Origin: a virus
DNA length: 39,521 bases
Strand: one strand, 5' to 3'
IMG/VR virus record: IMGVR_UViG_3300047468_000026
Coordinates: 1 to 39,521 of that record
In this document: positions 1 through 39,521 of the stretch, in pieces
Position numbering within the stretch: the first letter of the stretch is position 1
Layout: every line of letters begins with the position of its first letter
The notes under the pieces: generated by a model
The model's input: only the letters and a program-made list of their open reading frames with translations
What the model was told of the DNA's origin: nothing
The model's database searches: none
Position numbers and translations under genes: made by a program

Positions 1-580
1 CCAGCAGAACTACCAGAACCAGCAGGCCTACATCGACGCGCAGAACCAGCAGCGTGCGCAGGGTTTGCAGGAGCAGATGGCGGTCGGGCAGCAGAACTAC
101 GCGAACCAAACTAGTCAGGCGAATGCGTTCAACACGCAGCGCCAGCAGCAGATCGCCGAGGCGATGCAGCAGCGCGGCTTCAACCTGAATGAGATCAACG
201 CGCTCCTCACCGGTCAGCAGGTGAGCATGCCGACGATGCCCGGCTTCCAGAACGCGCAGCGCTCCGAGGGGCTGCAGTCGCTGCAGGCCGCCGACATGCA
301 GGGCCAAGCCGCGCTCGATGCGTACAACGCCAAGGCGGGCGCGACCGCAGGCATGATGTCCGGCATCGGCTCGATTGCGGGCGGCTTCATGCCGTCGAGC
401 CGCGCCGTGAAGCGTCGCGTCCGTCGCCTCGGCAAGACGCCCGGCGGTACGCCTATCTACTCGTTCCAGTACGTCTGGGGCGGGCCGCAGCAGATCGGCG
501 TGATGGCCGACGAAGCACCGCCCGAGGCGGTCGTCAACATCGACGGGGCTATCTACGTCGACTACTCGAAGGTGACCTGA
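1..580 (+). CDS. C-terminal part of a virion protein with S74-chaperone-like end (5' cut by window edge)
   Basis: Frame 2 is open from base 2 to the TGA at 578-580, so the gene starts outside the window. The visible part is a Gln/Asn-rich, probably helical segment. It is followed by a tail with SSRAVKRRVRRLG, then IYSFQY, then IGVMADE and VDYSKV. That order matches the intramolecular chaperone (peptidase S74-like) module at the end of phage fibre proteins: Ser-Arg-x-Lys, a Y-x-F-x-Y strand, then a G-(L/V)-M-A-x-E strand. The gene beginning at 38619 has the same Gln-rich style and runs off the right edge, so the two are probably halves of one protein. The next gene starts 1 base after this stop. 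Role as a virion or ejection-apparatus protein is inferred from position and composition. Confidence 0.75.
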   Translation, partial: QQNYQNQQAYIDAQNQQRAQGLQEQMAVGQQNYANQTSQANAFNTQRQQQIAEAMQQRGFNLNEINALLTGQQVSMPTMPGFQNAQRSEGLQSLQAADMQGQAALDAYNAKAGATAGMMSGIGSIAGGFMPSSRAVKRRVRRLGKTPGGTPIYSFQYVWGGPQQIGVMADEAPPEAVVNIDGAIYVDYSKVT

Positions 581-581
581 C

Positions 582-1190
582 ATGCCTGCTACTTCACGAT
601 ATCCGGGCGAGAGCGACGAAGCCTTTAAAGCACGCATGATGGGGTCGAATCCGGGGGCGTTCGGCATCAACGTGCCGCAGCTTCCCGGCGGCGTGCAGCC
701 GGGCATGCTCGGCGGCATGGGTGGACCGCCCGCACCCCAAGCGCCGCCGATGCAGGACGTGATGGCGCAGGGGCCGCCGCAGACTCCTGCGCCCAACGAT
801 CCGTTCTCGATGGGTCCACCCTCACCGCCCATCGATCCGAAGATCGCTGCCGGGGCGCTGCTCGATGATCTAACTAGTGTCAACATGGACACACAGGCCG
901 AGAAGGGCTACGAGGATCAGCTTGCCGAGGCCCGCGCGCTGCGCGATACGCAGATGCCCGAGGGCCACATGGCCGGGCGCGTCTTCGTTGCTCCCAACGC
1001 GCTGCAGTACATCGGCGCTGGCATCAAGCAGTACAAGGGCGCGAAGAAGGAGAAGGCCGCCGAAGAGGAACTTGCCAAGACTCGCAAAGAGATCGGGCGC
1101 AAGGAGGGTGGGATCACCAAGGAAGCCGCCAAGGAGAAGGGCTGGGGCGGCATCTACGACTGGATGAAGAAGAAGGATAGTGGGAGCTAA
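582..1190 (+). CDS. Hypothetical Pro/Gly/Met-rich virion-region protein
   Basis: 202 aa beginning MPATSRYPGESDEAFKARM. Residues about 35-90 are rich in Pro, Gly and Met (for example QAPPMQDVMAQGPPQTPAP) and are probably disordered. The C-terminal 60 residues are Lys/Glu-rich and probably helical. No known domain is recognised. It sits between the S74-type protein and a second Gln-rich protein, all on the same strand with short gaps, in the segment that normally carries internal or ejection proteins in short-tailed phages. The Leu-Thr-Ser at 871 is written CTAACTAGT, one copy of the dispersed 7-mer. A role in the virion is only an inference. Confidence 0.7.
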   Translation: MPATSRYPGESDEAFKARMMGSNPGAFGINVPQLPGGVQPGMLGGMGGPPAPQAPPMQDVMAQGPPQTPAPNDPFSMGPPSPPIDPKIAAGALLDDLTSVNMDTQAEKGYEDQLAEARALRDTQMPEGHMAGRVFVAPNALQYIGAGIKQYKGAKKEKAAEEELAKTRKEIGRKEGGITKEAAKEKGWGGIYDWMKKKDSGS

Positions 1191-1195
1191 CTACC

Positions 1196-2191
1196 ATGCC
1201 TAGCATCTTCGATTCACTGATCAACGATCCTGACGATCAGGAGCAGAGCAAGGCGATGATCGACGCTCTGCGCCGACAGGATGCGATTAGCACGGTGGCG
1301 CTCGGCATGGGTCGTCAACCCACCATGGCGCTCGGCCAGTCAATGCAGCGCGGCGTGCAGCAGTCCTTCGGCGAGGCGATGCAGGCGCGCGAGCGCGCCA
1401 AGCAGATGAAAATGCAGCAGGCGCAGATGCAGGCCGAGGCCGCGCAGCGCGGGCAGTCGCAGAAGAACTGGGAGGCTAACTACAAGGAGAACCAGCGCCA
1501 GTTCGAGGAGCAGTCCAAGCGCGAGAAGTACGGCGTCGCGGTCGATCCGATCACCGGCACCATGCGTATGTACAACGGCACGACCGGGGAGTGGAAGGAC
1601 TCGGAGGGCGGCACCGCTCCGCAGCAGAGCGTGTTCAACGTCAACGTGACTGGCAAGCCCACGACCCAGATGTCGAGCGACCTGCTCAAGCTGCGCCAGC
1701 AGCGCGGCGCTATCGAGGGCGCGATGCGCGCGGCCACTGCCAACCCGCAGGCGTTCGGCTTCGTGCAGGGCGCGGGCGATCAGTTCGGCGGGCAGTTAGG
1801 CTCGGCGATGGCGAACTGGGTGCGCAATCCGCAGGACTCGGCGGCGCGTGCGGGCGTGCTCAACAATGTCTCGACGATCATCAACGACCGTGCAGGCTCG
1901 GCCCAGAGCGAGCAGGAGTTAGGCCGCCTGCGCGGCTTCCTGCCGAGCGAGACCGATGACGTGCCGAAGATCATCGGCAAGTTCAATGCGTTCCTCGACT
2001 ATCTAGACGAGAAGGAAGCTGCGACGCGCGGCTTCACCACGGGGGAGCTAGGCATGAAGCCGCGTGTCGGTGCGCCAGCGCCGCAGCAGCAGAAGCCCGG
2101 CGTCGGAGCGGGGACGGTCACGGCCCCGCCTGCCGGTGCGCCCGGCGTCAGCGCGCCGCGACCCGGCGATGCGTTTTTGCCGCCGCGCTAG
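1196..2191 (+). CDS. Hypothetical Gln/Met-rich internal virion-like protein
   Basis: 331 aa. The N-terminus is acidic; residues about 55-105 are an Ala/Gln/Met-rich helical stretch with likely coiled coil. The centre (about 150-275) looks folded, and the last 45 residues are Pro/Ala-rich linker. The start ATG at 1196 follows TAACTACC, the same junction sequence that precedes the gene at 3956. The family is not recognised. Its neighbours, an ejection-like protein downstream and the S74-type protein upstream, suggest a structural or DNA-ejection role. Confidence 0.7.
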   Translation: MPSIFDSLINDPDDQEQSKAMIDALRRQDAISTVALGMGRQPTMALGQSMQRGVQQSFGEAMQARERAKQMKMQQAQMQAEAAQRGQSQKNWEANYKENQRQFEEQSKREKYGVAVDPITGTMRMYNGTTGEWKDSEGGTAPQQSVFNVNVTGKPTTQMSSDLLKLRQQRGAIEGAMRAATANPQAFGFVQGAGDQFGGQLGSAMANWVRNPQDSAARAGVLNNVSTIINDRAGSAQSEQELGRLRGFLPSETDDVPKIIGKFNAFLDYLDEKEAATRGFTTGELGMKPRVGAPAPQQQKPGVGAGTVTAPPAGAPGVSAPRPGDAFLPPR

Positions 2192-2201
2192 GAGTAGTTA
2201 G

Positions 2202-3950
2202 ATGGCAGATTACACACCCGAGGAAATTCAGCAGGCGATGCGCGCCGCCAAGCAGGCGGGCAACGTCGAGGCGTTTCACGACTTGGGCCAGCGGCTGCGC
2301 GAAACGTACGAGGCCGAGGCGAAGAACTCGGCGACCGAGGGCACCGGCACCGGCCAGCGCGTGCTTGAGGGCATCGGGCAGGGCATGAGCAACGTCGCGC
2401 GGCACGTCGGCAATGTGGTCGGCGCAAAGGGTGACCTGCCGTTCGGCATGGGCAACATGTCCGACGAAGGCCTCGCTGAAGCCAAGCAGCGCGACGCTGC
2501 GCTGCTCGACACGCGGGCAGGCAAGGTGGGGTCCTTCCTCGGTGAGATCGCCGCCACGGCTCCCGTGGGCGGTCTGGGGCTGGGTGCCGCGCGGGCCGGG
2601 GCGGCCAAGCTCGGGGCCGGGGCCGCCACGAGATTCTTGGCCGGGGCCGCCGGGGCCGGTGCCACGCAGGGCGCAGCAGAAGGCGCTCTGATGGCCGACA
2701 AGGGCGAGCGGCTGATGGGGGCAGGGGTAGGTGCGGCGGGCGGCGCTCTGATCCCTGCCGTTGGCGGGGCGGCATGGCGCGCACTGGTCCGAGGGGTCAA
2801 CCCGACCAAGGCGGCGCGCTACCTGCTGAACCGGGGTGTCGATCTGACACCGGGGCAGATGAATCCGGGCAGCAGCTTGGGCACCCTCGAAGAGGGCTTG
2901 AGCAACGTCTGGGGCATCGGGCCGATGATCAAGTCGGCGCGCGATGCCAGCCGCGAGCAGTGGCAGGCGGCGAGCCGCGAGGTGGGACTGTCCCCGACGA
3001 TGTTGAACGGCGCGGCTCCCACGGCGGCAGGCAAGGGTGCTGCGAAGGGTGGCGTCGATCAGATGTACGGCGGCTTTCGCACCGCGTACGACGAGGCGAA
3101 GGGCTTCCCTACCTACCCGAGGCAAGTGCGAACCGCAGGCGGTGATGTGCATCTCGCCGACACGCCCGCCGCGCCCGGATCGTTCACGCGCGCCGCGCAG
3201 TCGCCATCGGTGCGCGCAACGCCTGACACCCGCGCGTCGGCGCATAGCTGGCTGCAGGATCAGTTAGGCGCGCTCAAGCCTAACAAGAAGACAGGCCTTG
3301 TCGACTCGGAGGATTTGCTCGCGCTGCGCTCCAACATTCGCACCGAGATTCGCGACGCATCGCTGGGCGCGAGTCCCGACAAGGCGTCGGCGGACCTGCT
3401 GCGCAAGGCCGAGCAGGAGGTGACCGATGTGCTGGAGAGCCAGCTTCCGCCCGATGCGCTCGCCAAACTACGCGCGACCGATGCGCAGTACAGCCAGTAC
3501 AAGATTCTCGAAGATGCCACGAGGCGCGCGGGCGATCAGGTCGGCGGCATGAGTCCGGCGCATCTGTCGGCGGCGGTGCGCGCGGCGACACCGGCTGGCC
3601 CCTATGCGCGTGGCCTCGGTGGACCGCTGCGCCAGATGGCGCGCTCGGGTAGACAGGTGCTCGATGAGCGCACGGCACCGACCGGTGCGCGGCTGATCAG
3701 CTTGTTAGGCCCGGCGGCGCTGATCAAGAGCGCGCCGATCTTGGGGCTACCGGCGGCGGGGCTGATCGGCACGCAGTTCGGGCGCAAGATTCTCAAGGGC
3801 GGAACCGCCGGGCAACGATACGGGCGGGAACTTGCTGCCGCGCTGCGCAGGCCACGGGGCAAGCTGGGCGGGGTCAGAGGAAAGGGGCTTGGCAGCGCGT
3901 ATGGCGCGGCTCTCGGTGAACGTACAGCAGACGAACGGTTCGGAGACTAA
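2202..3950 (+). CDS. Putative internal virion / DNA-ejection protein
   Basis: 582 aa. A charged N-terminal helix (TPEEIQQAMRAAKQAGN) is followed by a long Gly/Ala-rich hydrophobic region at about residues 105-190, which could insert in a membrane. The central and C-terminal parts are mixed helical. Short-tailed phages such as P22 encode ejection proteins with this kind of Ala/Gly amphipathic composition just after the tail genes; that analogy, not a motif, supports the call. The start is preceded by GGAGTAGTTAG directly before ATG, a ribosome-site cassette reused elsewhere in the window. Several long open frames on the opposite strand here are high-GC shadows. Confidence 0.65.
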   Translation: MADYTPEEIQQAMRAAKQAGNVEAFHDLGQRLRETYEAEAKNSATEGTGTGQRVLEGIGQGMSNVARHVGNVVGAKGDLPFGMGNMSDEGLAEAKQRDAALLDTRAGKVGSFLGEIAATAPVGGLGLGAARAGAAKLGAGAATRFLAGAAGAGATQGAAEGALMADKGERLMGAGVGAAGGALIPAVGGAAWRALVRGVNPTKAARYLLNRGVDLTPGQMNPGSSLGTLEEGLSNVWGIGPMIKSARDASREQWQAASREVGLSPTMLNGAAPTAAGKGAAKGGVDQMYGGFRTAYDEAKGFPTYPRQVRTAGGDVHLADTPAAPGSFTRAAQSPSVRATPDTRASAHSWLQDQLGALKPNKKTGLVDSEDLLALRSNIRTEIRDASLGASPDKASADLLRKAEQEVTDVLESQLPPDALAKLRATDAQYSQYKILEDATRRAGDQVGGMSPAHLSAAVRAATPAGPYARGLGGPLRQMARSGRQVLDERTAPTGARLISLLGPAALIKSAPILGLPAAGLIGTQFGRKILKGGTAGQRYGRELAAALRRPRGKLGGVRGKGLGSAYGAALGERTADERFGD

Positions 3951-3955
3951 CTACC

Positions 3956-10317: not shown

Positions 10318-10581
10318 CTAGTCCTCTTTTTTGGGTCGTACGATATTGGTGCCGGTCGAGCGCTGCACCTCGTTGCGGAACGAGCGCGCCATCATCAGCT
10401 TCCAGCCCTGCCACAGTGTGTCGTCCTGCTCGGCGAGACCGTGGCGCAGGCTACCTAACAACACCGCGCCGCTCAAGGTATCCATCTGCGCGTAGTAGCA
10501 GTTGATGAAGTCGCCCTCGATCTGAAACGCCAACCGGTAGGGCGGCTTCTTCTCGGGGGCGACGAGGTCGATCACTTTCAC
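10318..10581 (-). CDS. Conserved-looking phage protein of unknown function
   Basis: 87 aa from the GTG at 10581, which overlaps the stop of the Cro-like gene as GTGA. The ATG at 10668 lies inside that gene and is rejected. The sequence has a compact hydrophobic core: YRLAFQIEGDFINCYYAQMD then LSGAVLLGSLRHGL. Proteins with an IEGDFxNCYYA segment are familiar from phage genomes but I know of no assigned role. It is co-transcribed with the helicase and Cro-like genes. Confidence 0.7.
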   Translation of the reverse strand: MKVIDLVAPEKKPPYRLAFQIEGDFINCYYAQMDTLSGAVLLGSLRHGLAEQDDTLWQGWKLMMARSFRNEVQRSTGTNIVRPKKED

Positions 10582-10850
10582 GCAGGCATCTCCCAGTTGT
10601 GCAGGTACAGGTCGGGGCGGATCACGGCGGGCCTGACGTTCAGGAGCTTCGCCAACGGCAGCGCCCACTCGGCGGGCACCAGCGTCGAGGGCTTCTTGCG
10701 CGCCCGGATGATGTAGATAGCCACGGTGCTGTGATTCTTGTGGCCGAGTAGTTTGCCCAGTTCGACCCGCGAGTACTTGGCCGCAGCGTACACCAGAGGG
10801 TGCACGCTGCGACCGTTGAGGGTCATGGTCTGGTTGATAGATTTGCTCAT
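10578..10850 (-). CDS. Cro/XRE-like helix-turn-helix regulator
   Basis: 90 aa. Residues about 20-75 fit a Cro-like HTH: AAAKYSRVELGKLLGHKNHS is the first helix, turn and start of recognition helix, followed by TVAIYIIRARKKPSTLVP and the end LAKLLNVRPAVIRPDLYL. The VPAEW...RPDLY ending resembles Cro/YdaS-type repressors. The start overlaps the helicase stop (ATGA at 10847-10850). As the only recognisable DNA-binding regulator in the window, it is the best candidate to bind the GTTGAC-N3-GTCAAC palindromes at the early promoters. That link is inference. No integrase or partner repressor is visible. Confidence 0.7.
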   Translation of the reverse strand: MSKSINQTMTLNGRSVHPLVYAAAKYSRVELGKLLGHKNHSTVAIYIIRARKKPSTLVPAEWALPLAKLLNVRPAVIRPDLYLHNWEMPA

Positions 10851-12238
10851 GTGCGTTTGTCCTTTAAAGCATTCATTAGGGCGCTCTGGCCGCGAGCCTT
10901 GTGGCGCAGGGCGTCGAGAACATCTCCGTCGATGGTATCAACCGCGACGATGTAATGGAAGGTGACAGGCTTGGTCTGACCCTGACGCCACACGCGGGCG
11001 TTGAACTGATCGAACTCTTCGAGGTTCCAAGTCAGCGAGAACCAGCACACCGCGTTGCCACCGGCCTGCAGGTTCAGGCCATGCGCGACCGAGGTCGGAT
11101 GGGCGAGCAGCACCGGGATCGCGCCCGCGTTCCACTGGCTAACAATCTCGGCGCTCTTCGACGCTGACACGCCGCCGCCGAGGTAGGGGATCGAGGCATC
11201 ATCGAGCGCGGCGCGGATCGCGTCCACCTCGTGCTGGAAGGCGACCGCGACCAGCAGCGGCTGACCGGCCTGCTCTTCGATCAGGTCGACCAGCGCGTCT
11301 AACTTCTCGGAGTGCACCGAGTGCGCCACCTTGTCGGCGCTGATCTCGTGGCTCTTCGCGCCGTACACGCCGCCGCTGGCGATCTGGCGCAGCTTCATGC
11401 CCTTGGCTGCAGCGTTCGCCGCCGTCACGAGTCCCGACCCCACCTCGCTGAAGAATTCCTCTTCGAGTGCGTTGTACACACGGCGAGCGGCGGTGGGCAG
11501 TTCGACCTTGATGAAGTTCTCGATCTTGCGGGGCATCTGTAGATAGTCTTCTGCCCGCAGGGCCAGAGTAACGTCCGCCACCTTCGCCTGCACGCGCTCC
11601 GAGGTGTCGCGACGCGGGTGCCAGAGCGAGTAGCCATTGAATCGTTCCTCGTTGAAGTATTCGCGGCGGAAGTGGGTGACGTATTTGCCGAGACGTTCGC
11701 CGCCGTCGAGCATGAAAATCTGACCAAACAAGTTCTCGATACCGTTCGGGGCCGGGGTGCCCGTGAGAATCCACACGCGGCTGAAGCGATCCCGCAGGCG
11801 CTTCATAATTTTGTAGCGCTGGGTCTGGGTGTTCTTGATCTTGGTCGACTCGTCGAGGCAGAGCACGTCGAACGGCATCTGCTTGCGACTAGCTAGTTCC
11901 TGCTCCAGCCACGCGAGTCCCTCGTAGTTGATCACGTACACGTCGGCCTTCTCGTTCAGGCGCTCGGCCTTCTTGGGTCCATGCAGGATGACGTGCTTGA
12001 GACCGGCGAAGTCGGTCCACTTGGCGATCTCGCCGGGCCACACGATGGACATCGGGCGCAGCGGAGCCACGACCAGCATGGCCTTGGCCGCGCCGTTCTC
12101 TTTGAGCACGCTGAACGAGGCCAGCGTGGTCGAGGTCTTGCCAAGTCCCGGCTCGGCGAACAGGCCATAGCCCGGCTTTGACAGCATGTCGCCGATGGCG
12201 CGCATCTGGTAGGGGTGGGGGGTCCAGTCGATGGTCAT
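10847..12238 (-). CDS. SNF2/DEAD-like superfamily 2 helicase
   Basis: 463 aa, the usual length for phage SNF2-type helicases. The N-terminus has the Q-tip-like HPYQMRAIGDML. Walker A is AEPGLGKT (about 29-35). The DExx box is LDEST (about 128-132). Motif III is LTGTPAPNG (158-166). Motif VI is ARVWRQGQTKPV near residue 425. These are ATP-driven translocases that move along duplex DNA and probably assist replication or recombination. The start overlaps the VRR-NUC stop (ATGA at 12235-12238), a pairing often seen in phage replication clusters. A GGAGACTGAA ribosome site and leader stem-loop precede the ATG. Confidence 0.93.
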   Translation of the reverse strand: MTIDWTPHPYQMRAIGDMLSKPGYGLFAEPGLGKTSTTLASFSVLKENGAAKAMLVVAPLRPMSIVWPGEIAKWTDFAGLKHVILHGPKKAERLNEKADVYVINYEGLAWLEQELASRKQMPFDVLCLDESTKIKNTQTQRYKIMKRLRDRFSRVWILTGTPAPNGIENLFGQIFMLDGGERLGKYVTHFRREYFNEERFNGYSLWHPRRDTSERVQAKVADVTLALRAEDYLQMPRKIENFIKVELPTAARRVYNALEEEFFSEVGSGLVTAANAAAKGMKLRQIASGGVYGAKSHEISADKVAHSVHSEKLDALVDLIEEQAGQPLLVAVAFQHEVDAIRAALDDASIPYLGGGVSASKSAEIVSQWNAGAIPVLLAHPTSVAHGLNLQAGGNAVCWFSLTWNLEEFDQFNARVWRQGQTKPVTFHYIVAVDTIDGDVLDALRHKARGQSALMNALKDKRT

Positions 12239-17430: not shown

Positions 17431-17641
17431 CGCATTTCTCCGCAGGTGTGTTGATGTCGTCAGCAGTATGCATGCCGCTGTTGATCAGAGTCAACAGCGC
17501 GTTGGCAATATCATCATAGGGCTTGTTGCGTTCCTTCGAGACCTTGGGGCGCGTCTGCCAGTACTGGATCAGGTAGCGCTTGCACGCTTCGATGTTCCCG
17601 CGCTGGAATGCGCGCACCGAGTTTCTCAGGTGCTCGATCAT
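17420..17641 (-). CDS. Hypothetical small protein
   Basis: 73 aa from the ATG at 17641, overlapping the upstream stop as ATGA; longer readings run into other genes. It is helical, MIEHLRNSVRAFQRGNIEAC, ending with Cys/Asp residues (EKCDDC). No family is recognised. An imperfect GTTGAT/GTCAAC repeat inside it (17474-17489) has a 4-base spacing and is not counted as an operator. Confidence 0.65.
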   Translation of the reverse strand: MIEHLRNSVRAFQRGNIEACKRYLIQYWQTRPKVSKERNKPYDDIANALLTLINSGMHTADDINTPAEKCDDC

Positions 17642-17886
17642 GCTTCCCCCTCCAAGGTAGCTAGGGCCAGTTGTACGTAGAGCTTCGCGATGCCGCGCGT
17701 CCTGCCTTTCTCGGCAGGCCACTTGGCGATGGCGTTGCGTAGATAGACGGCGGCGTCCTTGCCGTTGATGGCGTGGGCGTGCGGGGCCAGTACGTGCCCC
17801 GCCTCCTTCGCCTTGCGCTTGGCCTTCAGCGTTGCCTTGAACTTGGCAATCGCCTCGGGGGTGCGTTTGTATCCTTTGGGTGGCAT
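17638..17886 (-). CDS. Hypothetical basic protein
   Basis: 82 aa, very Lys/Ala-rich at the N-terminus (PPKGYKRTPEAIAKFKATLK), with a short helical C-terminus. The N-terminal part resembles the NUMOD-type or AT-hook-like basic segments seen in phage DNA-binding proteins, but this is weak. Start and stop overlap the neighbours (TGATG at 17886; ATGA at 17638). Confidence 0.65.
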   Translation of the reverse strand: MPPKGYKRTPEAIAKFKATLKAKRKAKEAGHVLAPHAHAINGKDAAVYLRNAIAKWPAEKGRTRGIAKLYVQLALATLEGEA

Positions 17887-18089
17887 CAGCGCTTCCTCCC
17901 GTCACCGTCGAACCACTCGACGAGTCGCGACGAGAACACCTTGAGGCGTCCACGGCGGAAGAGAATCTGCGCTGGGCGCTTCTTCTTCCAGTAGTAGCGA
18001 GCGCTGCGACAGGCCTGACACAGCGCGATGTGCTCGCGCTGGGTCTCGAACTCCACGCCACACTCGGCGGTCTCGCAGGTCTTCTTCAT
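17886..18089 (-). CDS. Small zinc-finger-like protein
   Basis: 67 aa. CETAECGVEF followed by ALCQACRSARYYWKKKRP gives a Cys-x4-Cys ... Cys-x2-Cys pattern, likely a zinc ribbon. The rest is basic, ending FDGDGRKR. It overlaps the DUF3846 gene upstream as ATGA. It may bind nucleic acid; the exact role is unknown. Confidence 0.7.
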   Translation of the reverse strand: MKKTCETAECGVEFETQREHIALCQACRSARYYWKKKRPAQILFRRGRLKVFSSRLVEWFDGDGRKR

Positions 18090-19066: not shown

Positions 19067-19095
19067 ATTATACAGAGATGGTTGACGGTGTCAAC
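19067..19095 (-). promoter_or_regulatory. Consensus sigma70 promoter with operator palindrome
   Basis: Leftward: TTGACA (19089-19094), 16-base spacer, TATAAT (19067-19072), the strongest promoter match in the window. The perfect operator GTTGACGGTGTCAAC (19081-19095) overlaps the -35. A further half-site GTTGAC lies at 19060-19065. The word CTTTAAA follows at 19099. Confidence 0.85.
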
Positions 19096-19100
19096 GTGCT

Positions 19101-19307: not shown

Positions 19308-19311
19308 CTAA

Positions 19312-19494
19312 CTACTCCTGAATGAATTCGTATTTCATCCCAGCGCGGCGCTGGGCGTCGGATCGGTTCGAGTTCTCGCGGTTGCAGAAGTCTCGCGCCT
19401 CGGTCAGCGTGAGACCCCTGCGCACCGTGGTCTTCTTGGCGCTGGCGAACTCCTCGAAGTTGCGCGCCGCGCGCTTGAATACCTTGTACGTCAT
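19312..19494 (-). CDS. Small conserved phage protein of unknown function
   Basis: 60 aa, basic: SAKKTTVRRGLTLTEARDFC followed by an Asn/Arg-rich segment and KYEFIQE. A GLT(L)xEA...C pattern in a short basic protein is frequent in phages. GGAGTAGTTAG directly precedes the ATG at 19494. Confidence 0.7.
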   Translation of the reverse strand: MTYKVFKRAARNFEEFASAKKTTVRRGLTLTEARDFCNRENSNRSDAQRRAGMKYEFIQE

Positions 19495-19498
19495 CTAA

Positions 19499-20407: not shown

Positions 20408-20436
20408 ACTATACAGGGTCTGTTGACGCTGTCAAC
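20408..20436 (-). promoter_or_regulatory. Sigma70-like promoter with operator palindrome
   Basis: Leftward: TTGACA (20430-20435), 16-base spacer, TATAGT (20408-20413). Perfect operator GTTGACGCTGTCAAC at 20422-20436. The following 12 bases (AACTGCGTCACA on the plus strand, to 20448) also occur at the divergent region, so the shared block is 27 bp. Confidence 0.85.
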
Positions 20437-21092: not shown

Positions 21093-21121
21093 ATTCTACA
21101 GGTCCTGTTGACGCTGTCAAC
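21093..21121 (-). promoter_or_regulatory. Leftward early promoter with operator
   Basis: TTGACA (21115-21120), 16-base spacer, TAGAAT (21093-21098). Perfect operator GTTGACGCTGTCAAC at 21107-21121 covers the -35. Drives the leftward early block beginning with the gene at 20710-21045. Confidence 0.85.
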
Positions 21122-21190
21122 AACTGCGTCACACTTTTGAACGCTTTAAAGCATCTGCCGAAAGTGTGACGCAGTTGTTGACAGCGTCAA
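21108..21190. repeat. Perfect 30-bp inverted repeat of the divergent control region
   Basis: Arms 21108-21137 and 21161-21190 are exact reverse complements. The 23-base spacer holds the palindrome GCTTTAAAGC at 21143-21152, almost at the centre. Each arm carries one -35/operator plus the extended TGTGACGCAGTT element, so leftward and rightward promoters are mirror images. Confidence 0.9.
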
Positions 21191-21251: not shown

Positions 21252-21830
21252 ATGAAAGCAATCAAGAGTCGCGAAGAGTGGTTGAACGTGGTGCTGCACA
21301 AGCATGTCGCGAAGCTGCTGAAGACCAAGGCCAATGTCGTGCTGCCCGCCGATGCCAAGGTGTCGGTCGGTTTCCCCGGCGGTGGCTCGGCGCGCAAGCG
21401 TATCGGCGAGTGCTGGCCGCGCGTTCGTTCCTCGATCAAGGTCAACGAGATTTTCATCAATCCCTCGCTCACCTCGCCGAAGCTGATGATCGACGTGCTG
21501 GTGCACGAGGCCATTCACGCGGTCGATGACTGCAAGAACGGCCACAAGGCACCGTTCCGCAAGATGGCGCTGGCCGTGGGCCTCGAAGGCAAGATGAAGT
21601 CGACGCACGCGGGCGCGGAGTTGCTCAAGTGGATAGACGGCGTGCTCGCCGCCATGCCCGCGATGGACTACGGCTCGCTCGATCTGTCGGGCCGCAAGAA
21701 GCAGGCGACGTATCTCATCAAGCTGCAGTGCGGCGCGTGTGGCTACGTTGTTAGGACCACGCAGAAGTGGCTCGACGTCGGCGTGCCGGAGTGCTGCTGC
21801 GGTGAAGGCCCGCTCAGTGTGGCGGGCTGA
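21252..21830 (+). CDS. SprT-like zinc metalloprotein with C-terminal zinc ribbon
   Basis: 192 aa. The active-site motif VHEAIHAV gives HExxH at 85-89, followed by a GHKAPFRKMALAVGLEG segment typical of SprT-like proteins, whose third ligand is a downstream His or Glu. A zinc ribbon follows at about 156-184: LQCGACGYVVRTTQKWLDVG then PECCCG. SprT/Spartan-type proteases remove proteins stuck to DNA; a DNA-related role fits the early position. First rightward gene; start confirmed by CGGAGTCTGAA. The ribbon is closely similar to that of the GIY-YIG protein at 16374. Confidence 0.85.
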   Translation: MKAIKSREEWLNVVLHKHVAKLLKTKANVVLPADAKVSVGFPGGGSARKRIGECWPRVRSSIKVNEIFINPSLTSPKLMIDVLVHEAIHAVDDCKNGHKAPFRKMALAVGLEGKMKSTHAGAELLKWIDGVLAAMPAMDYGSLDLSGRKKQATYLIKLQCGACGYVVRTTQKWLDVGVPECCCGEGPLSVAG

Positions 21831-22351: not shown

Positions 22352-24280
22352 ATGTCTGCAGACCCTGCGCAGTTCACCCTGCCGTTCTCTCACTACGCCA
22401 AGCTGGGCTATCTACCTGTGCCACTGCAGGGCAAGGTGCCATTCCAACCGGGCTGGCAATCGAGACGGTTCGACGACACCGAACTAGTCGCGCTCGACGC
22501 GACGCCCGGATACAACGTCGGCCTCAACTGCACGAACATCGTCGGCCTCGACATCGACCTCGTCGATCCGAAGCACGCCAAGAAGATCGAGGCGCTGATA
22601 CGCCGCACCCTCAAACTACCCAAGAGCACGCCGCGCCGCGTGGGCAACGCGCCGAAGTGTCTGCTGATCATGCGCTGCGATGCGCCGCTGCCCGGATTCG
22701 ATCTGCGCCACGCACGCAAGACCGTGCTGTTCCAGTTGTTAGGCCACGGCAAGCAGTTCGTGGTGTCGGGCATCCACCCGGATACTCAGAAACCGTACAC
22801 GTTGAACCGTCCGCTGCCCAAGGTGGAGAAGCTGCCCCTGCTCACGCCTGCGAGCTACGTGGCGCTGCGCGAGGCGCTCACCGATGGGCTGACCAAGCTG
22901 GGGTACGACGTCGGCACCAGCGCCGCCGTGGGCGGTCCCAGACGCGATGACTGGAGCGGTGCGCCGTGGACCGACACCGGCCTAGCGCAGGCTGCCGAGG
23001 CGCTGATGGCGCTCGATCCGAGCATGGATCGGATGTCGTGGATCAACGTCGGCATGGCGCTCGCCGATGGCACGCACGGCGGCGAGGATGGCTTCGCGAT
23101 GTGGCAGCACTGGTCGAGCCAGTCAGAGAAGTACAACGCGCGCGAGATGCGCAAGCAGTGGGCGAGCTTTAAGCCCGGACCCATCACGCGCGCCAGTCTG
23201 TTCAAGAACCAGTGGCTGAAGCGTGAGCAGGTAGTTAGTACGCCACCTGCGCGCACGACCAGCAAGGCCGAGCCGGGCATCAGTCTGCGTGCGCTGATGG
23301 CGCTCGATCCGGGGCCGGTGCCGTGGCTGGTCGATGGCCTGCTCACGCACGGCGCGCACTTGCTGGTCGGTCGGCCCAAGGGCGGCAAGTCGTGGGTGAC
23401 GATGGACATGGCATACGCGGTCGCCAATGCGGGCACGTTCGCGGGCAAGAAGGCGCGCAGCGGTCGGGTGCTGTGGGTCGCAGCCGAAGACACGCGCGAC
23501 GGACTAGCTAGACGCCTGAAGGTACGAGGCGAGGCGGTCGGTGCCAACGTCACGGTGTACACGGCAGAGGACCTGCGCGCCGAGCGTGCCGAGTGGGATG
23601 CGTGCGCGTTCCACGAGATGCTCGACGCGCGGCTCGAAGCCGATCCATTCGACCTCGTGATCCTCGACACGCAGAAGACCTGCGAGGCGGTGTGGTCGGC
23701 TGAGAAGATAGACGAGCGCAGGCACGCGAGCGTGGTCGACATCGCCTACCAGAGCGTGCGGCTGTACGATGACATCGGGCAGCGCAGGCAGGCGTGCGTC
23801 GTGCTCGTGCATCACACGGGCAAGCTGAAGAACAACAAGGGCACGGACTACCATGAGCGCATCAACATGCCCGCCACGGTGGTCGCAGGCGTCACAGGCT
23901 CGCTGGTGCTGGCCGATCCACCCGAGCGTGAGCTACACGAGAAGGATGACTTCCAGCGCATCCTAGCTATTCGTGGGCGGCACATGGCGCAGGGTGACGA
24001 GCAGTTCATGGTGGCTTTAAAGATGGGTCACATGGAGTTGTTAGGCGAGTACATCGAGGTGGTGCAGACCAAGGCGCAGGCCGAGGTGTTCACAGCCATC
24101 GAAGCGATGCTGCGCGAGCAGGAGTCGGTGACGATTGCCGAGGTGGCGGGGTTCATGGGCAAGCACAAGAACACCGTGCAGACGGCGCTGTCGCGGGCGG
24201 CCAAGGTGCCGGGCGGCATGGTGTGGAAGGGTCGACGCCTGACGATCAAGCAAGGCGCGGGCATTCGTTGGGTCGTGTAG
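22352..24280 (+). CDS. Primase-polymerase / RepA-type helicase fusion
   Basis: 642 aa. N-terminal bifunctional primase-polymerase domain: VGLDIDLVDP (Asp67, Asp69), RRVGNAPKCLLI, and GHGKQFVVSGIHPDT (about 131-145), the usual metal and nucleotide motifs. A PriCT-like helical domain follows (about 205-290). Then a RecA-fold RepA-type ATPase: VGRPKGGKS (Walker A, about 339-347), FDLVILDT (Walker B, 433-440), VLVHHTGK (about 484-491). The C-terminus has a winged-helix-like segment (TIAEVAGFMGKHKNTVQTAL). It primes and unwinds DNA at replication forks, partnering the polymerase at 13553. GGAGTCCACC precedes the ATG. Confidence 0.92.
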   Translation: MSADPAQFTLPFSHYAKLGYLPVPLQGKVPFQPGWQSRRFDDTELVALDATPGYNVGLNCTNIVGLDIDLVDPKHAKKIEALIRRTLKLPKSTPRRVGNAPKCLLIMRCDAPLPGFDLRHARKTVLFQLLGHGKQFVVSGIHPDTQKPYTLNRPLPKVEKLPLLTPASYVALREALTDGLTKLGYDVGTSAAVGGPRRDDWSGAPWTDTGLAQAAEALMALDPSMDRMSWINVGMALADGTHGGEDGFAMWQHWSSQSEKYNAREMRKQWASFKPGPITRASLFKNQWLKREQVVSTPPARTTSKAEPGISLRALMALDPGPVPWLVDGLLTHGAHLLVGRPKGGKSWVTMDMAYAVANAGTFAGKKARSGRVLWVAAEDTRDGLARRLKVRGEAVGANVTVYTAEDLRAERAEWDACAFHEMLDARLEADPFDLVILDTQKTCEAVWSAEKIDERRHASVVDIAYQSVRLYDDIGQRRQACVVLVHHTGKLKNNKGTDYHERINMPATVVAGVTGSLVLADPPERELHEKDDFQRILAIRGRHMAQGDEQFMVALKMGHMELLGEYIEVVQTKAQAEVFTAIEAMLREQESVTIAEVAGFMGKHKNTVQTALSRAAKVPGGMVWKGRRLTIKQGAGIRWVV

Positions 24281-32897: not shown

Positions 32898-32929
32898 GGA
32901 GCAGGGCTAACTACCCTGCTCCGTTTTTT
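32898..32929 (+). terminator. Rho-independent terminator after the capsid gene
   Basis: A 9-bp perfect stem GGAGCAGGG/CCCTGCTCC (32898-32906 with 32914-32922) with the loop CTAACTA, followed by G and six T. The loop is exactly one copy of the dispersed 7-mer. Confidence 0.9.
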
Positions 32930-32943
32930 CAAAGGAGTTCGCA

Positions 32944-33636: not shown

Positions 33637-33647
33637 GGAGTAGATAG

Positions 33648-33833
33648 ATGGAAACACCGAAAGTGTATCAGCCCGGAGAAGGTGGTGACCCCGAGGTGCC
33701 GACCGACTTCATCGAGGACGTTCCGCCTGCCGAGGAGATCGTCGTCGAGGAAGGCTTTAAAGAAGACGATGCCGCTGATGCGGAGGCGGACGACTCGTAC
33801 GCCAAGCATCGCAGCGAGAATCGGGGCGAGTAA
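33648..33833 (+). CDS. Small acidic hypothetical protein
   Basis: 61 aa, very rich in Asp/Glu (PPAEEIVVEEGFKEDDAADA). Preceded by GGAGTAGATAG directly before ATG. Its stop overlaps the next start (TAATG). May act as an adaptor or be an intrinsically disordered structural factor; unknown. Confidence 0.65.
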   Translation: METPKVYQPGEGGDPEVPTDFIEDVPPAEEIVVEEGFKEDDAADAEADDSYAKHRSENRGE

Positions 33834-34231: not shown

Positions 34232-34248
34232 TTAGGGAGCGTTCACAC

Positions 34249-34818: not shown

Positions 34819-34834
34819 CTATAAGGATGATGAC

Positions 34835-35443
34835 ATGCGCGATATCACACTCGAAGAGATGGCCGACAACGTCAACAACCCGTCGTTCGGCGACGACTTG
34901 TTAGGCGTGGTGTTCTATTCCCGTACCGTTGAGGATGTCACCCGCTCTGCTGCGGAGGGGCATCGCGTCTTCAAGACGCGCGACTACGTCAAGATAATGA
35001 CCCCCGGAGATCGGCACAACACGATAGATAGACCGGTGCAGCGCACCGGCATCCTGCCGACCGACGACATCGAGCGCTTCCCCAAGCAGTGGGCGCGCTA
35101 CCAGAACAAGCAGCAGCAGCAGGAGCACGAAGGCACGCCGCTGATGCTGTGGAGCGTGATGCCCTCGCCGCTCGCCGAGGAATTGAAGTACCTGAACATC
35201 TTCACCGTCGAGCAGTTAGCCAACCTCGCCGACTCGCACGCCAGCAAAATCCGTGGCGGCCCGACGTGGAAGCAGAAGGCCGCCGAGTTCGTGAAGGCTT
35301 TAAAGGACACGGCGCTGGTCGGCAAGCTGCAGGTCGCTCTCGCCGAGCGCGACAACAAGATCGAGACGCAGGACAAGGCGATCAAGGATCAGGCCGACAA
35401 GTTAGAGCGGCTCGCCGCGCGTCTCGCCAAGCTGGAGAAGTAA
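34835..35443 (+). CDS. Hypothetical protein with C-terminal coiled coil
   Basis: 202 aa from the ATG at 34835 (AAGGATGATGAC upstream); an earlier in-frame ATG lies in the previous gene. N-terminal region GDDLLGVVFYSRTVEDVTRS is folded; the C-terminal 60 residues, including TQDKAIKDQADKLERLAARL, are coiled coil. Position before the head-tail connector genes suggests a head or joining role. Not recognised. Confidence 0.65.
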   Translation: MRDITLEEMADNVNNPSFGDDLLGVVFYSRTVEDVTRSAAEGHRVFKTRDYVKIMTPGDRHNTIDRPVQRTGILPTDDIERFPKQWARYQNKQQQQEHEGTPLMLWSVMPSPLAEELKYLNIFTVEQLANLADSHASKIRGGPTWKQKAAEFVKALKDTALVGKLQVALAERDNKIETQDKAIKDQADKLERLAARLAKLEK

Positions 35444-36205
35444 ATGCCACGCTTCGCAACCATCGGTGACATCGTCAACAGGACAGCGGTCAGCGTGGGG
35501 CTTGACCCTGTCGGCGATCCGTTCGCGTCCGACGATCCGGCGCTGATCCAGTTGCGCACGCTTGCGAATGAAGTGGGCGACACGCTGGTGATGACCGAGG
35601 GTGTGCAGTGGCAGCAGTTAGAGAAGTCAGCCAACTTCACCACCGCGCCGGGAGACACGGGCGTTTACGATCTGCCCGTGGACTTCGGCTACATGATCGA
35701 TCAGACCGAGTGGCAGCAGGGAGCGCCGGGGGCGGCCTACCCACTGCTCGGCCCGGCATCGGCGCAGTGGTGGAGCTATCTACAAGCCTCGGCTGTCTAC
35801 ACGGTGACTATCTACGCATGGTTCCGCGTGCTGACCGGGCAGTTGCAACTGTGGCCGCAGCCGCCGCCCGTGGGCATTCCGATTGCCTACAAGTACACCA
35901 GCCGCTACTGGGTGCAGGACGGCGCGAGCCTTCCGCCGCTGCTGGTCTACAAGGATCAGGTGCAGGCACAGGCCGACATCGTGCTCTTCGAGCCGATCCT
36001 GTTCATCAAGGCTTTAAAGCAAGCCTTCCTCACCGCTAAAGGGTTCGACACCACCAAGGTCGACGCCGAGTTCCTCGCCGCGATGTCGGGAGTCGGTGGG
36101 CGCGACAAGCCCTCTCCGGTGCTGTCGCTCAACGGGCCGCGCGCGTTCTCGCCGCGCCTGCTCGACAGTGTCATCAACGTGCCCGAGACCGGGATAGGTA
36201 GTTAG
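35444..36205 (+). CDS. Head-tail connector / adaptor protein (tail tubular A-type)
   Basis: 253 aa. FATIGDIVNRTAVSVGLDPV, then TLANEVGDTLVMTEGVQWQQLE, DLPVDFGYMIDQTEWQQG and YIAYKYTSRYWV resemble podoviral adaptor proteins (T7 gp11 or P22 gp4 class): a helical start, an LPxDFxxMIDQTxW segment and a beta-rich end. It would bind below the portal and link to the tail tube encoded next. Start is directly after a TAA. The stop TAG overlaps the following GTG. Confidence 0.75.
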   Translation: MPRFATIGDIVNRTAVSVGLDPVGDPFASDDPALIQLRTLANEVGDTLVMTEGVQWQQLEKSANFTTAPGDTGVYDLPVDFGYMIDQTEWQQGAPGAAYPLLGPASAQWWSYLQASAVYTVTIYAWFRVLTGQLQLWPQPPPVGIPIAYKYTSRYWVQDGASLPPLLVYKDQVQAQADIVLFEPILFIKALKQAFLTAKGFDTTKVDAEFLAAMSGVGGRDKPSPVLSLNGPRAFSPRLLDSVINVPETGIGS

Positions 36206-37845
36206 TGCTGCAAGCAGGCAAAAAGTTCGCGCAGCTTGCGATGGGCAAGCGCAAACCGCAGCAGCAGAACACGCAGCCGGTGCTTTATCCTGCGACGCAG
36301 GGCGGCATCAATGCGGTCGATGCGGCGGGCGCGGTGCCGCCGACCGATGCGCTGCTGCTGGTGAACATGATCCCCGCCGAGAAGGGCGTGCGGGTCAGGA
36401 AGGGCTGGATCGAGCACTGCATCAAGATCCCGCTCGGCGATGGGGTCAAGACCCTCGTGCCGTTCACGCACCAGTTGGTCGATGCGCCGGTAGATAGACT
36501 CTTCGGCGTGACGAGTGATGGCATCTATGACGTGACCACGCCGAGCGTCGCTCCTGTCAAGGTGCTCGACTTCCCGGTGAAGTCGGGCGAGGCGGGCTGG
36601 GCGCAGTGGACTAACTTCACCACCATCGCCGGGCAGTTCATCCTGCTGACCGACAAGGCGAATGGCTACTACGTGTACACGGCCTCGACCAACACATGGG
36701 CGGCGGGCACGGTGACCGGCGTCTCGGCGTTGTTGTTAGTCTTCGTGCTGATCTGGAAGAACCGCGTGTGGTTCATCGAGAAGGACACCGGCACCGCGTG
36801 GTATCTGCCCGTCGGGCAGATCACTGGCGTGGTCACGCCGTTCCTGTTCGGCACCAAGTTCAAGTACGGCGGCTACCTCAAGTCGCTGTGGAACTGGACA
36901 CTCGACGGCGGCGAGGGGGTCGACGACTATCTAGCCGCGATCTCCAGCGGTGGCGACATGGTGGTCTACAAGGGCACCGACCCCGACACGGCGACGGCGG
37001 GCAACTCGTTCGCTCTCAGCGGGCTGTGGAACATCGGCAAGCCGATGCAGGGTCGGCGGCAGGGCGCGAACATGGGTGGCGAACTACTCATCGCGACAGC
37101 TTTCGGAATCATACAGGCCTCGAAGCTCATCGCCGGACAGCCGGTGACGGACGAGGCCGTGTCGATGAGCTACAAGATCAACCCTGCGGTCAATCAGGTC
37201 ACCGACCGCATGGCGGACTTCTACGGCTGGGAGCCGGTGTTCATCCCGAAAGAGCAGTTGTTGATGTTCATCACGCCGAAGGAAGTCGGCCAGCCCTATC
37301 TACAGTTCGTGTTCAACACCTCGACCCATGCGTGGTGCGTGTTCGCCGATCTGCCGGTGAAGACCGGCGTGATGTGGAAGAACAAGTTCTACTTCGGCAC
37401 CGACGACAACCGGGTAGCTAGTTACGATGGCTTCCTCGACAAGGTGTTCCTCGATCCTGTGACCGACGGCACCTTCGAGCCTATCCAGTGGGAGTCGCTC
37501 ACCGGCTTCCAGTCGTTGGGCCAGCCCGCGATCCACAAGCGCGTGCAGTTCATCCGTCCGATGTTCATCGGCGCGTCCTCGCCTGTGTACAAGATCGTCG
37601 CCAAGTACGACTTCGATCTGACGCCGCCCGCAGGCTCGCCGGTCTTCCCGCCGACGACAGGCGGCATCTGGGGCATCGGCATTTGGGACTTCTCGACGTG
37701 GGGCGGCGGCTACTTCACCACCAAGTCGATCAAGGGCGGCAGCGGCATGGGCCGCTACGTGGCCCTCTACATGCGCGGGCGCTCCTCGACGGAACTCGTG
37801 CACGTCGGCACCGACGTGATGTTCGACTCGGGCGGCATGTTATGA
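36205..37845 (+). CDS. Tail-tube / nozzle protein (P22 gp10- or T7 gp12-like)
   Basis: 546 aa from a GTG at 36205. After a basic N-terminus it has VLYPATQGGINAVDAAGAVP and LLLVNMIPAEKGVRVRKGW, then many beta repeats with Tyr/Trp, including LFGVTSDGIYDV and ITGVVTPFLFGTKFKYGGYL. This layout fits beta-propeller-like nozzle proteins of short-tailed phages. It would close the tail tip. It overlaps neighbours at both ends (TAGTG and ATGA). Confidence 0.78.
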   Translation: MLQAGKKFAQLAMGKRKPQQQNTQPVLYPATQGGINAVDAAGAVPPTDALLLVNMIPAEKGVRVRKGWIEHCIKIPLGDGVKTLVPFTHQLVDAPVDRLFGVTSDGIYDVTTPSVAPVKVLDFPVKSGEAGWAQWTNFTTIAGQFILLTDKANGYYVYTASTNTWAAGTVTGVSALLLVFVLIWKNRVWFIEKDTGTAWYLPVGQITGVVTPFLFGTKFKYGGYLKSLWNWTLDGGEGVDDYLAAISSGGDMVVYKGTDPDTATAGNSFALSGLWNIGKPMQGRRQGANMGGELLIATAFGIIQASKLIAGQPVTDEAVSMSYKINPAVNQVTDRMADFYGWEPVFIPKEQLLMFITPKEVGQPYLQFVFNTSTHAWCVFADLPVKTGVMWKNKFYFGTDDNRVASYDGFLDKVFLDPVTDGTFEPIQWESLTGFQSLGQPAIHKRVQFIRPMFIGASSPVYKIVAKYDFDLTPPAGSPVFPPTTGGIWGIGIWDFSTWGGGYFTTKSIKGGSGMGRYVALYMRGRSSTELVHVGTDVMFDSGGML

Positions 37846-38297
37846 AGCCGACTATCTACTTTCGCCCGATCAACTGCGAAGCTGACATTCGCACGTTCAT
37901 CACGAAGACTAGCTACTTTCCCGGCACGCAATTCGGCGGCATCGTGGCGTACATGCTGCGCGACGGTCGTGAGGAAGGCATGGGCATGGTGGGTTTCGAT
38001 GCTTGGGCACCGCGCAGCGTGATGGCGCACTGGTATATCCGCTTCCCTCGCTGCATCGAGCCGCTCTGGGCCGAGGCGGTGAAGTACATCGCGCTCACCG
38101 GGCGCAAGTCGATTCTGGGCAGCACGCCTAGCAACAATGACAAAGCCCTTCGTTCCATCCGGCATCTGGGGTGGGAGCATCTCTACACCATCAAGGATGG
38201 CTGGGACGAAGGTGTTGATCTCGTAATCTCGGAGTACAAAATTCATGGGCAATCAGAAGTTGGCACCCTCGCCTTACGGCGGGAGCGGGCCGCCTAA
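37842..38297 (+). CDS. Acetyltransferase-like protein among tail genes
   Basis: 151 aa from the ATG at 37842, overlapping the nozzle stop as ATGA; longer frames are shadows. It has YMLRDGREEGMGMVGFDAWA, then RCIEPLWAEAVKYIALTGRK and NNDKALRSIRHLGWEHLYTI, which resembles GNAT-fold proteins: a central strand, an amphipathic helix, and a LG(W/F) helix-strand near the end. Related small proteins sit between tail genes in T7-like phages; substrate and role are unknown. Confidence 0.65.
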   Translation: MKPTIYFRPINCEADIRTFITKTSYFPGTQFGGIVAYMLRDGREEGMGMVGFDAWAPRSVMAHWYIRFPRCIEPLWAEAVKYIALTGRKSILGSTPSNNDKALRSIRHLGWEHLYTIKDGWDEGVDLVISEYKIHGQSEVGTLALRRERAA

Positions 38298-38607
38298 CCA
38301 GTCGATGCAGCCGCTGCAGCCGCGTCCGCCGATGGGTGGACCGCAGGCTGGGATACAACCGCCCGCAGGCATGCAGCCCGGTGGACCTCCTCCGGGCATG
38401 GGTGCGCCGCCGATGGGTGCGCCGCAAGGCATGGGGCCGCGTCCGGGCATGGGTCCGCCTCCCGGCATGCCGCAGGGTCCGCCTCCGGGCATGGGTCCGC
38501 CGCAGGGCATGCCGCCGCAGGCGATGTCTGCGCCCAAGATGGCCCCGCAGCAGATGCAGCAGATGGCCCAAGCGCAGGCGCTGCGCGCTGGCCCCGGTCG
38601 TCGCTAG
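38245..38607 (+). CDS. Pro/Gly/Met-rich low-complexity protein
   Basis: 120 aa, dominated by PGMG, PPPG and APQGM repeats (for example PPGMGAPPMGAPQGMGPRPG). The end is Gln/Met/Ala-rich. Start overlaps the previous gene by 53 bases; GGAG lies 10 bases upstream. Likely disordered, perhaps an assembly or linker protein. Opposite-strand shadow frames here are simply Pro/Gly codon mirrors. Moderate confidence that it is translated. Confidence 0.55.
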   Translation: MGNQKLAPSPYGGSGPPNQSMQPLQPRPPMGGPQAGIQPPAGMQPGGPPPGMGAPPMGAPQGMGPRPGMGPPPGMPQGPPPGMGPPQGMPPQAMSAPKMAPQQMQQMAQAQALRAGPGRR

Positions 38608-38618
38608 TTAGGTGAGCC

Positions 38619-39521
38619 ATGAGCAAGTCAACCCCCAAGGCACCTGACTACGCAGCCGCTGCGAAAGAGCAGGCACAGTCGTCCAAGGAAGTGACGGAGC
38701 AGCAGACGTGGGCGAACCGTCCTGATCAGGTCACGCCGTGGGGCACGGAGTCGTGGTCTAACGAGATGGTCTGGGACCCGGCGACGCAGCAGAACATCAA
38801 CAAGTGGACGCAGAACACCACGCTCAACGCGCAGTCACAGCAGGCGCTCGATGCGCAGTTGGCGGTGCAGAACCAGCGCAGTCAGTTGGCGCTCGGCGCG
38901 GGCGACCGGCTCGGGGCCGAGTACGGCCAGCAGTTCGACTGGGGGCAGTTCGGGCAGATGGCGCAGAATCCCAACGCGCCTATCTACCAGCAGCCCGGCG
39001 CGATGGTCGGTCCCGCGCAGGGTCCGCAGTACGGCACGCAGGGTTTGAATGCGTACGGACAGGCTCCGACCCAAGGCCAGTACAGCGCGGAGAACATCCA
39101 GCGTGGACTCGACACCTCGGGGCTGCAGCAGTTAGACCCGTCGCAGCGCTACAACCAGCAGGCGGGAGATGCCGTCTACAACCAGTGGGCGAGTCGCGCG
39201 CAGCCCGCGCAGGCACAGGCGACCAACCAGCTTCGCACGCAGTTGTACAACCAAGGTCTGAAGGAAGGCGACGCGGCGTACGACAACGAGATGGCGAAGC
39301 TGCGCATGACGCAGGGCGACGCGCAGCAGCAGGCCGCATTCCAAGCGACGCAGATGGCAGGCTCTGAAGCCAGCCGCATGTACGGCATGGATCAATCTAC
39401 CCGCCAACAGCAGTTCGGCGAGATTCAGGCGGGCGGCAACTTCGCGAACCAAGCCGCACAGCAGTCGCTGCAGCAGCAGTTAGGTCTCGGCGGGCAGCGC
39501 TACGAGGAGTCGCTCGGCGCT
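38619..39521 (+). CDS. N-terminal part of Gln-rich virion protein (3' cut by window edge)
   Basis: ATG at 38619, then 301 codons open to the last base. Starts MSKSTPKAPDYAAAAKEQAQ; the body is Gln/Asn/Ala-rich and mostly helical (SQQALDAQLAVQNQRSQLAL, QQSLQQQLGLGGQRYEESLG). The fragment at 1-580 continues the same style, so this is probably its front half; the frames differ by one base at the join. It is the last gene before the ejection-protein group, which suggests an internal virion or tail-fibre-linked role. Confidence 0.7.
   Translation, partial: MSKSTPKAPDYAAAAKEQAQSSKEVTEQQTWANRPDQVTPWGTESWSNEMVWDPATQQNINKWTQNTTLNAQSQQALDAQLAVQNQRSQLALGAGDRLGAEYGQQFDWGQFGQMAQNPNAPIYQQPGAMVGPAQGPQYGTQGLNAYGQAPTQGQYSAENIQRGLDTSGLQQLDPSQRYNQQAGDAVYNQWASRAQPAQAQATNQLRTQLYNQGLKEGDAAYDNEMAKLRMTQGDAQQQAAFQATQMAGSEASRMYGMDQSTRQQQFGEIQAGGNFANQAAQQSLQQQLGLGGQRYEESLGA

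Follow-up and report, generated by a model that had tools for sequence, protein, structure and literature searches.

A seven-base word held at synonymous positions throughout the genomes of a small phage clade, and its possible reading by a DNA-binding complex

Why should a tailed phage carry the same seven-base word about a hundred times, on both strands and in every reading frame of its genes? The question is raised by the virus record IMGVR_UViG_3300047468_000026, the whole of which (39,521 bases, GC content 64%) is referred to here as the window. A first-pass annotation, made from the sequence alone, had counted about 95 copies of the word CTANCTA (TAGNTAG on the opposite strand) by hand and had attributed them to selection on the DNA itself. 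The exact count is 103, with 55 copies reading CTANCTA and 48 reading TAGNTAG on the plus strand; these occupy 99 distinct places, since four palindromic CTAGCTAG sites count on both strands. The over-representation is real and stronger than had been claimed: dinucleotide shuffles gave a mean of 3.4 copies and a maximum of 9, and a second-order Markov model (Markov-2) predicted 5.0. When codons were shuffled synonymously within genes, 26.7 +/- 2.1 copies remained (maximum 33), 24 of which were held fixed because they do not lie inside a single gene; ordinary codon bias thus does not account for the array. The sites, and those in notable positions, are as follows.

453..38986, both strands: the whole array, 103 copies at 99 places (exact count)
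Plus-strand copies, first bases: 453, 549, 870, 1187, 1476, 1999, 3109, 3947, 4328, 4549, 4614, 4802, 4988, 5536, 6131, 6364, 7143, 7700, 8461, 9187, 10314, 10451, 11889, 17111, 18473, 19308, 19495, 19611, 22408, 23504, 23963, 24580, 24703, 25367, 25478, 25771, 26114, 26269, 27147, 28449, 29493, 30424, 31101, 31193, 32535, 32907, 33166, 34815, 35776, 35808, 36927, 37296, 37852, 37909, 38980
Minus-strand copies, first bases: 2195, 5412, 6916, 7352, 8602, 10714, 11540, 11890, 12519, 13433, 14261, 14572, 15000, 15333, 15689, 16211, 16661, 17037, 17658, 17740, 18151, 19896, 20696, 20707, 23232, 23505, 24322, 24569, 26525, 27323, 27950, 28616, 28811, 29372, 30053, 30903, 31194, 31871, 32863, 33641, 34229, 35025, 36195, 36199, 36491, 37415, 38605
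11889..11896, read in both orientations: palindromic CTAGCTAG site, one of four (the others at 23504, 25478 and 31193)
1187..1198, plus strand: stop-start junction CTAACTACCATG, in which the word supplies the TAA stop directly ahead of ATG (another at 3947)
19308..19319, plus strand: spacer between the Shine-Dalgarno sequence and the start codon of a minus-strand gene, AGGAGTAGTTAGATG on the minus strand (a like case at 19495)
32898..32927, plus strand: intrinsic-terminator hairpin, GGAGCAGGG-CTAACTA-CCCTGCTCC-GTTTTT, with a loop that is exactly CTAACTA (32907-32913)

The copies that the first-pass annotation had placed at stop-start junctions, in ribosome-binding-site spacers and in a terminator loop were all found again, and at 33641 the word also serves as a Shine-Dalgarno/start spacer on the plus strand. 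Its description of the unit as a CTA-N-CTA repeat holds insofar as a gap of one base between the CTA units is the only one enriched (103 copies, against 1-8 for gaps 0 and 2-8), but the base at N is constrained. Other CTAs are most often followed by C (253 of 489), yet C is strongly avoided at the middle of the word (6 of 103), and A directly follows the word in just three of the 103 copies; the word is better given as CTA[A/T/G]CTA[not A]. The statement that the six-base core is almost always extended to seven was too strong, as A completes CTANCT in 103 of 150 cases, and C stands ahead of TANCTA in 103 of 123. Words that deviate at one nucleotide are about 2-fold enriched, mostly CTANCAA and CTANCTG/T, that is, at the last two positions, and no enrichment was found for deviants at either C position. 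Given this enrichment of near-matches, recognition of CTANCTA looks graded, like that of a graded binding site.

The window encodes PolA, a PrimPol-helicase, an SNF2 helicase, a PD-(D/E)XK nuclease, terminase, portal, major head protein and amidase. Its head protein is akin to those of Stenotrophomonas phage BUCT555 and Myxococcus phage Mx8, and its polymerase and helicase to those of Stenotrophomonas phage AXL_3 and Pseudoxanthomonas phage PW916. Apart from L001, which is the same phage (99.97% identity), searches with the PolA, PrimPol, SNF2 and portal proteins returned just two further carriers of the word, the metagenomic sister phages g1 (G001) and g5 (G005), at 79-82% nucleotide identity. 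The former (39,039 bases) has 92 copies, against 9 of a control consisting of the word read backwards, and the latter, a fragment of 15,469 bases, has 46 against 7. No copies occur in L002 (10.9 kb; head protein 80% at the amino-acid level), G283 (27.9 kb; head protein 78%, PolA 63%, SNF2 70%), G284, G286, BUCT555 or Mx8, and G285 has three. A gapped-word scan of the other loci tested revealed nothing comparable (top z about 11, versus 46, 46 and 29 in the three carriers), and in pattern searches of viral contigs for copies linked to ribosome-binding sites or stop codons (AGGAGTAGNTAGATG; GGAG-N0-6-CTAACTACCATG) the matches listed had ordinary motif density only. The simplest history would be a single recent origin of the array in this clade.

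The positions of the sites were then compared among these phages. The alignable window sites are kept in 53 of 76 cases in g1 and in 31 of 40 in g5 (70-78%), versus 36% and 45% for words of the same composition, and are present in 0 of 21, 0 of 18 and 0 of 18 cases in L002, L003 and L004. The junction words at 1187 and 3947 are both conserved in g1, and the terminator-loop word at 32907 in g1 and g5; within some conserved sites the middle base varies. Inside the sites the codon itself is retained in 82 of 108 cases in g1 (51 expected) and in 41 of 56 in g5 (29 expected), counting identical amino acids whose codons have at least two bases in the site and taking the expectation from the same codons elsewhere. 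A permitted place was defined as an in-gene position at which some synonymous spelling yields CTANCTA. The word is carried at 79 of 228 such places in the window (35%), at 68 of 230 in g1 and at 34 of 86 in g5, whereas five control words used 1-14% of theirs and BUCT555 used none of 140. As the proteins of the window and of BUCT555 offer permitted places at similar density (6.3 and 6.1 per kb), the effect sits in synonymous choice. All genome modules are used alike (p=0.25), and use by frame is 0.30, 0.48 and 0.58 in sense frames 0, 1 and 2 and 0.29 in the main antisense frame. These data show that selection maintains CTANCTA at synonymous positions in every frame and on both strands, in this clade only. 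The proposal of selection on the DNA itself is supported by the codon null, by the synonymous conservation, by use in every frame and both orientations, and by the lack of such enrichment in the 370 proteobacterial genomes sampled. Loss of a site is not compensated by nearby gains between the window and g1 (p about 0.5), and only weakly from the window to g5 (p=0.047).

Neighbouring sites exclude one another below about 75 bp: a permitted place was used in about 15% of cases with another site 7-75 bp away and in about 40% otherwise. With another site 7-50 bp away, a permitted place was used in 8 of 73 cases, and otherwise in 167 of 445. Use by distance to the neighbour was 0.14, 0.06 and 0.19 up to 75 bp and then flat near 0.40; the exclusion is strand-blind, with use of 0.14 beside a same-strand and 0.18 beside an opposite-strand neighbour, versus 0.40. 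Pooled, the sites are spaced more evenly than they would be under uniform placement (p=1e-4 in the window, 0.0016 in g1 and 0.06 in g5), an evenness that is mostly this short-range exclusion.

What, then, reads the word? We tentatively favour, with confidence a little short of even, the view that the sites of the array are bound by a DNA-binding complex peculiar to this clade, whose footprint would be about 75 bp. CTA[A/T/G]CTA[C/G/T] would be recognized by this sequence-specific complex on double-stranded phage DNA, and the complex would settle in either orientation, at intervals of about 400 bp, and occupy, or make redundant, roughly 75 bp around each site. The reader would probably be a phage-encoded protein gained by this clade, since the word is shared by phages with different sets of avoided restriction sites, which suggests different hosts. 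The weakest step concerns the benefit to the phage: the complex may coat or organise the genome and thereby mark, condense or shield the DNA, for instance by forming roadblocks against translocating nucleases. A duplex-reading complex is the simplest explanation remaining, because codon or host bias, mutation or repair, nicks and oriented stoperators fit poorly, as set out below. The interpretation offered by the first-pass annotation is supported in part: a protein-binding site remains the best of its options, and packaging, modification and nicks fare worse. With marginally more reserve, the finding could be generalized as follows: a small clade may have given about one third of its possible synonymous positions over to a 7-bp address word, allowing the genome to be carpeted by a phage protein complex whose footprint is about 75 bp, and a second, palindromic word, described later, would show genome-wide rewriting within one lineage. 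The candidate readers are listed here.

17886..18089, minus strand: basic protein of 67 amino acids with four cysteines (zinc-ribbon-like); candidate reader, 82% identical in g1
17638..17886, minus strand: basic protein of 82 amino acids; candidate reader, about 65% identical in g1
10318..10668, minus strand: open reading frame of 116 amino acids (conserved part about 95); candidate reader, 82% in g1
10578..10850, minus strand: Cro/YdaS-like helix-turn-helix protein of 90 amino acids with weak family matches; predicted to bind DNA by resemblance only
22352..24280, plus strand: Prim-Pol, PriCT_2 and AAA_25 domains (primase-polymerase/helicase; Pfam); candidate reader if the word primes replication

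The first two have no homologue in the searchable motif-less relatives, the nearest of which, G283, may be incomplete. The third has none in the motif-less sister G283, although G283 has the neighbouring genes of the region. The Cro/YdaS-like protein is 83% identical in g1 and about 50-57% in G283 and G285, and the PrimPol had no sequence match in PDB.

Several observations weigh against such a complex. The p-value of the neighbour exclusion (3.5e-6) is optimistic, as the three genomes pooled have sites in common through descent. The control words in the exclusion test went both ways, one of them, CGA-N-CGA, likewise being used less beside a neighbour (0.05) than elsewhere (0.13), and the extent of the exclusion zone is therefore approximate; moreover, when measured against codon-permitted placement, the evenness of spacing reaches only p=0.036. 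No reader protein was pinned down among the phage genes, and the reader may be encoded by the host. AlphaFold models of two clade-specific small proteins, built from two-row alignments, were of low confidence (predicted local distance difference test, pLDDT, 52 and 66), and a fold search with one modelled candidate returned no match.

The main phage-encoded rival is priming, which we consider unlikely: the PrimPol would start primers on single-stranded CTANCTA templates, kept on both strands for lagging-strand synthesis. Consistent with this, the phage encodes Prim-Pol and PriCT_2 domains together with a helicase, the NrS-1 PrimPol prefers an 8-nt template word (TTTGGTTA) read by a helix-bundle domain (PMC8718748, PMC7102993), CTA is the start for several Firmicute DnaG primases (PMC5204125), and each strand offers a site about every 750 nt. 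However, the NrS-1 genome has just two copies of its word (PMC7102993), against about 100 in the window; the exclusion ignores strand and ends at about 75 bp; the sites lack the run structure expected from fork direction; and per-strand regularity is no better than with shuffled strand labels in the window and g1, although it is in g5 (p=0.011). We give the same low credence to a host factor, be it a host DNA-binding protein, a Chi-like signal or a host methyltransferase, that rewards word-bearing phage DNA. In favour of such a factor, no reader gene was pinned down in the phage, the word-less relatives might infect other hosts, and the avoidance of restriction sites shows strong host adaptation. 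Against it, 274 gammaproteobacterial and 96 alphaproteobacterial genomes hold at most about 0.13 CTANCTAC per kb, versus 1.5 in the phages; none of these 370 sampled proteobacterial genomes comes near the phage enrichment, the host itself not being identified, and no host genome bias was seen in four prophage-bearing or related genomes. In addition, the window and g1 avoid different restriction sites, suggesting different hosts that would need a factor in common, and blindness to orientation is at odds with Chi. Slightly less likely still is modification of the word by a phage or host enzyme, with modified sites protecting or labelling the DNA. This would resemble the nearest idea in the literature, HIP1 (GCGATCGC) and the alternate HIPs of cyanobacteria, short iterated words that also lie genome-wide and inside genes, can differ between lineages and accompany matching methyltransferases (PMC4390886). 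The HIPs differ in genome, symmetry and this link, being palindromes of bacterial chromosomes, whereas CTANCTA is a direct repeat in a phage and shows neighbour exclusion, which modification would not lead one to expect. The N6/N4, N6, Dam and C5 methyltransferase families (PF01555, PF02384, PF05869, PF00145) were unmatched in the three phages, and methyltransferases usually demand an exact word, unlike the graded enrichment of near-matches seen here. The modification site proposed in the first-pass annotation thus gained no positive support, and a host enzyme may yet modify the word.

Regulation by stoperators, in which a phage repressor binds many sites and blocks transcription, seems improbable. 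In Cluster A mycobacteriophages, such sites are likewise dispersed, asymmetric and conserved within clades, with a specificity that changes between subclusters (PMC6550527), and the second motif described below, partly intergenic, has switched in a comparable way. Those phages, however, have 20-30 sites, mostly in one orientation relative to transcription and read by the immunity repressor (PMC6550527), whereas the window has about 100 in-gene sites without orientation and encodes one Cro/YdaS-like protein (10578-10850), and no integrase is among its proteins matched to families. The equal use of sense frame 0 and the main antisense frame after codon limits also speaks against the polar packaging signal that had been suggested. 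We consider it very improbable that the sites mark programmed nicks, or serve packaging, in the virion DNA. Short-word nicks are known in T5, phiKMV-like and tf-like phages, and the phiKMV nick word contains CCTA/CTCC (PMC3517423); like CTANCTA, the tf-like and phiKMV-like motifs are short, asymmetric, clade-enriched words kept at similar places (PMC3517423, PMC11780129). The known words nevertheless occur on one strand only, those of the phiKMV-like phages included, with 13-14 copies in tf and Rembedalsseter (PMC3517423, PMC11780129), versus 55 and 48 here on the two strands, and at the four palindromic CTAGCTAG sites nicking of both strands would sever the duplex. Least probable of all is that the array arose as a side effect of bias, be it in codons, in oligonucleotides, or in mutation or repair. 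A GC-rich genome contains few CTA and TAG words, which are easily skewed, and HIP1 has been proposed to originate through repair (PMC4390886), but this explanation is largely refuted: codon shuffles erase nearly all in-gene copies, only gap 1 is enriched, and near-matches are enriched rather than depleted. Codon bias and mutation or repair drive act place by place, so no exclusion over 7-75 bp would be expected from them. Of the known families compared, each departs in one or more of the defining features tested or was only partly comparable, and the literature searched offered no precedent for TAGNTAG-like or evenly spread phage motifs.

A second word is also enriched. TTTAAA occurs 18 times in the window (0.2-1.4 expected), always as C-TTTAAA-G or C-TTTAAA-T, i.e., of the CTTTAAAG type.

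TTTAAA sites in the window: 624, 4118, 6226, 8793, 10863, 15075, 16373, 19100, 21145, 21201, 22330, 24016, 25858, 27237, 30670, 33756, 35299, 36013

In the sisters, g1 has 19 and g5 has five, always G-TTTAAA-C except for one G-TTTAAA-T, and GTTTAAAC is also found in relatives without CTANCTA (six in G286, four in G283 and two in L002). At several aligned places TTTAAA is present with its flank swapped, namely 8793, 21145, 22330 and 25858 in g1 and 30670 in g5. As the sisters and the CTANCTA-less relatives carry GTTTAAAC, it is apparently in the lineage of the window that the outer base pair was exchanged, from GTTTAAAC to CTTTAAAG, which suggests that the reader of such words can alter its specificity. 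Beyond the window, loci with the second motif were noted in L204, L205 and L206 and in L342, L343, L347 and L348. No interplay of spacing was found between CTANCTA and TTTAAA.

CTAACAA is a third enriched word, with 24 copies in the window (e.g., at 24038, 26653 and 28105), 12 in L206 and seven in g1, and is perhaps a weaker form of the main word. It tends to fall in the gaps between main sites (p 0.07-0.11 in each of three genomes). GTTAG is enriched as a whole, and other NTTAN contexts are rare.

Other words are depleted. The window lacks, or almost lacks, 22 words that are palindromic or of the CCWGG type, and the set avoided by g1 differs in part. Such heavy restriction pressure on the group fits the idea of shielding by a DNA-binding complex and does not prove it. 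Extreme avoidance of about 20 six-base palindromes and CCWGG extends to g1, g5, L002, L004, L022, L025 and L048, and the sets differ between close relatives.

If the proposed binding sites are real, synonymous positions would carry a second, genome-wide message that some factor must read, and the array would be a novel means of marking, packing or protecting viral DNA. With one nearly complete genome and one long sister genome, word-less relatives and a switched second motif at hand, the proposal is simply testable, by asking what binds CTAACTAC.

Finally, some minor features of the window may be recorded. Rfam and tRNA scans of it returned no matches. One long gene seemingly spans both ends of the record (1-580 and 38622-39521), and in the alignment to g1 about 58 bases are apparently absent between the ends, which suggests that the record is a nearly complete genome opened within a gene. 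A gene for a SprT-like metalloprotease with a C-terminal zinc ribbon lies at 21252-21830; its product is 86% identical in g1 and akin to annotated SprT-like proteases of actinobacterial phages. Operator-like palindromes GTTGACGCTGTCAAC occur at 19081-19096, 20421-20436, 21107-21122 and 21177-21190, in early intergenic positions, and are kept in g1.

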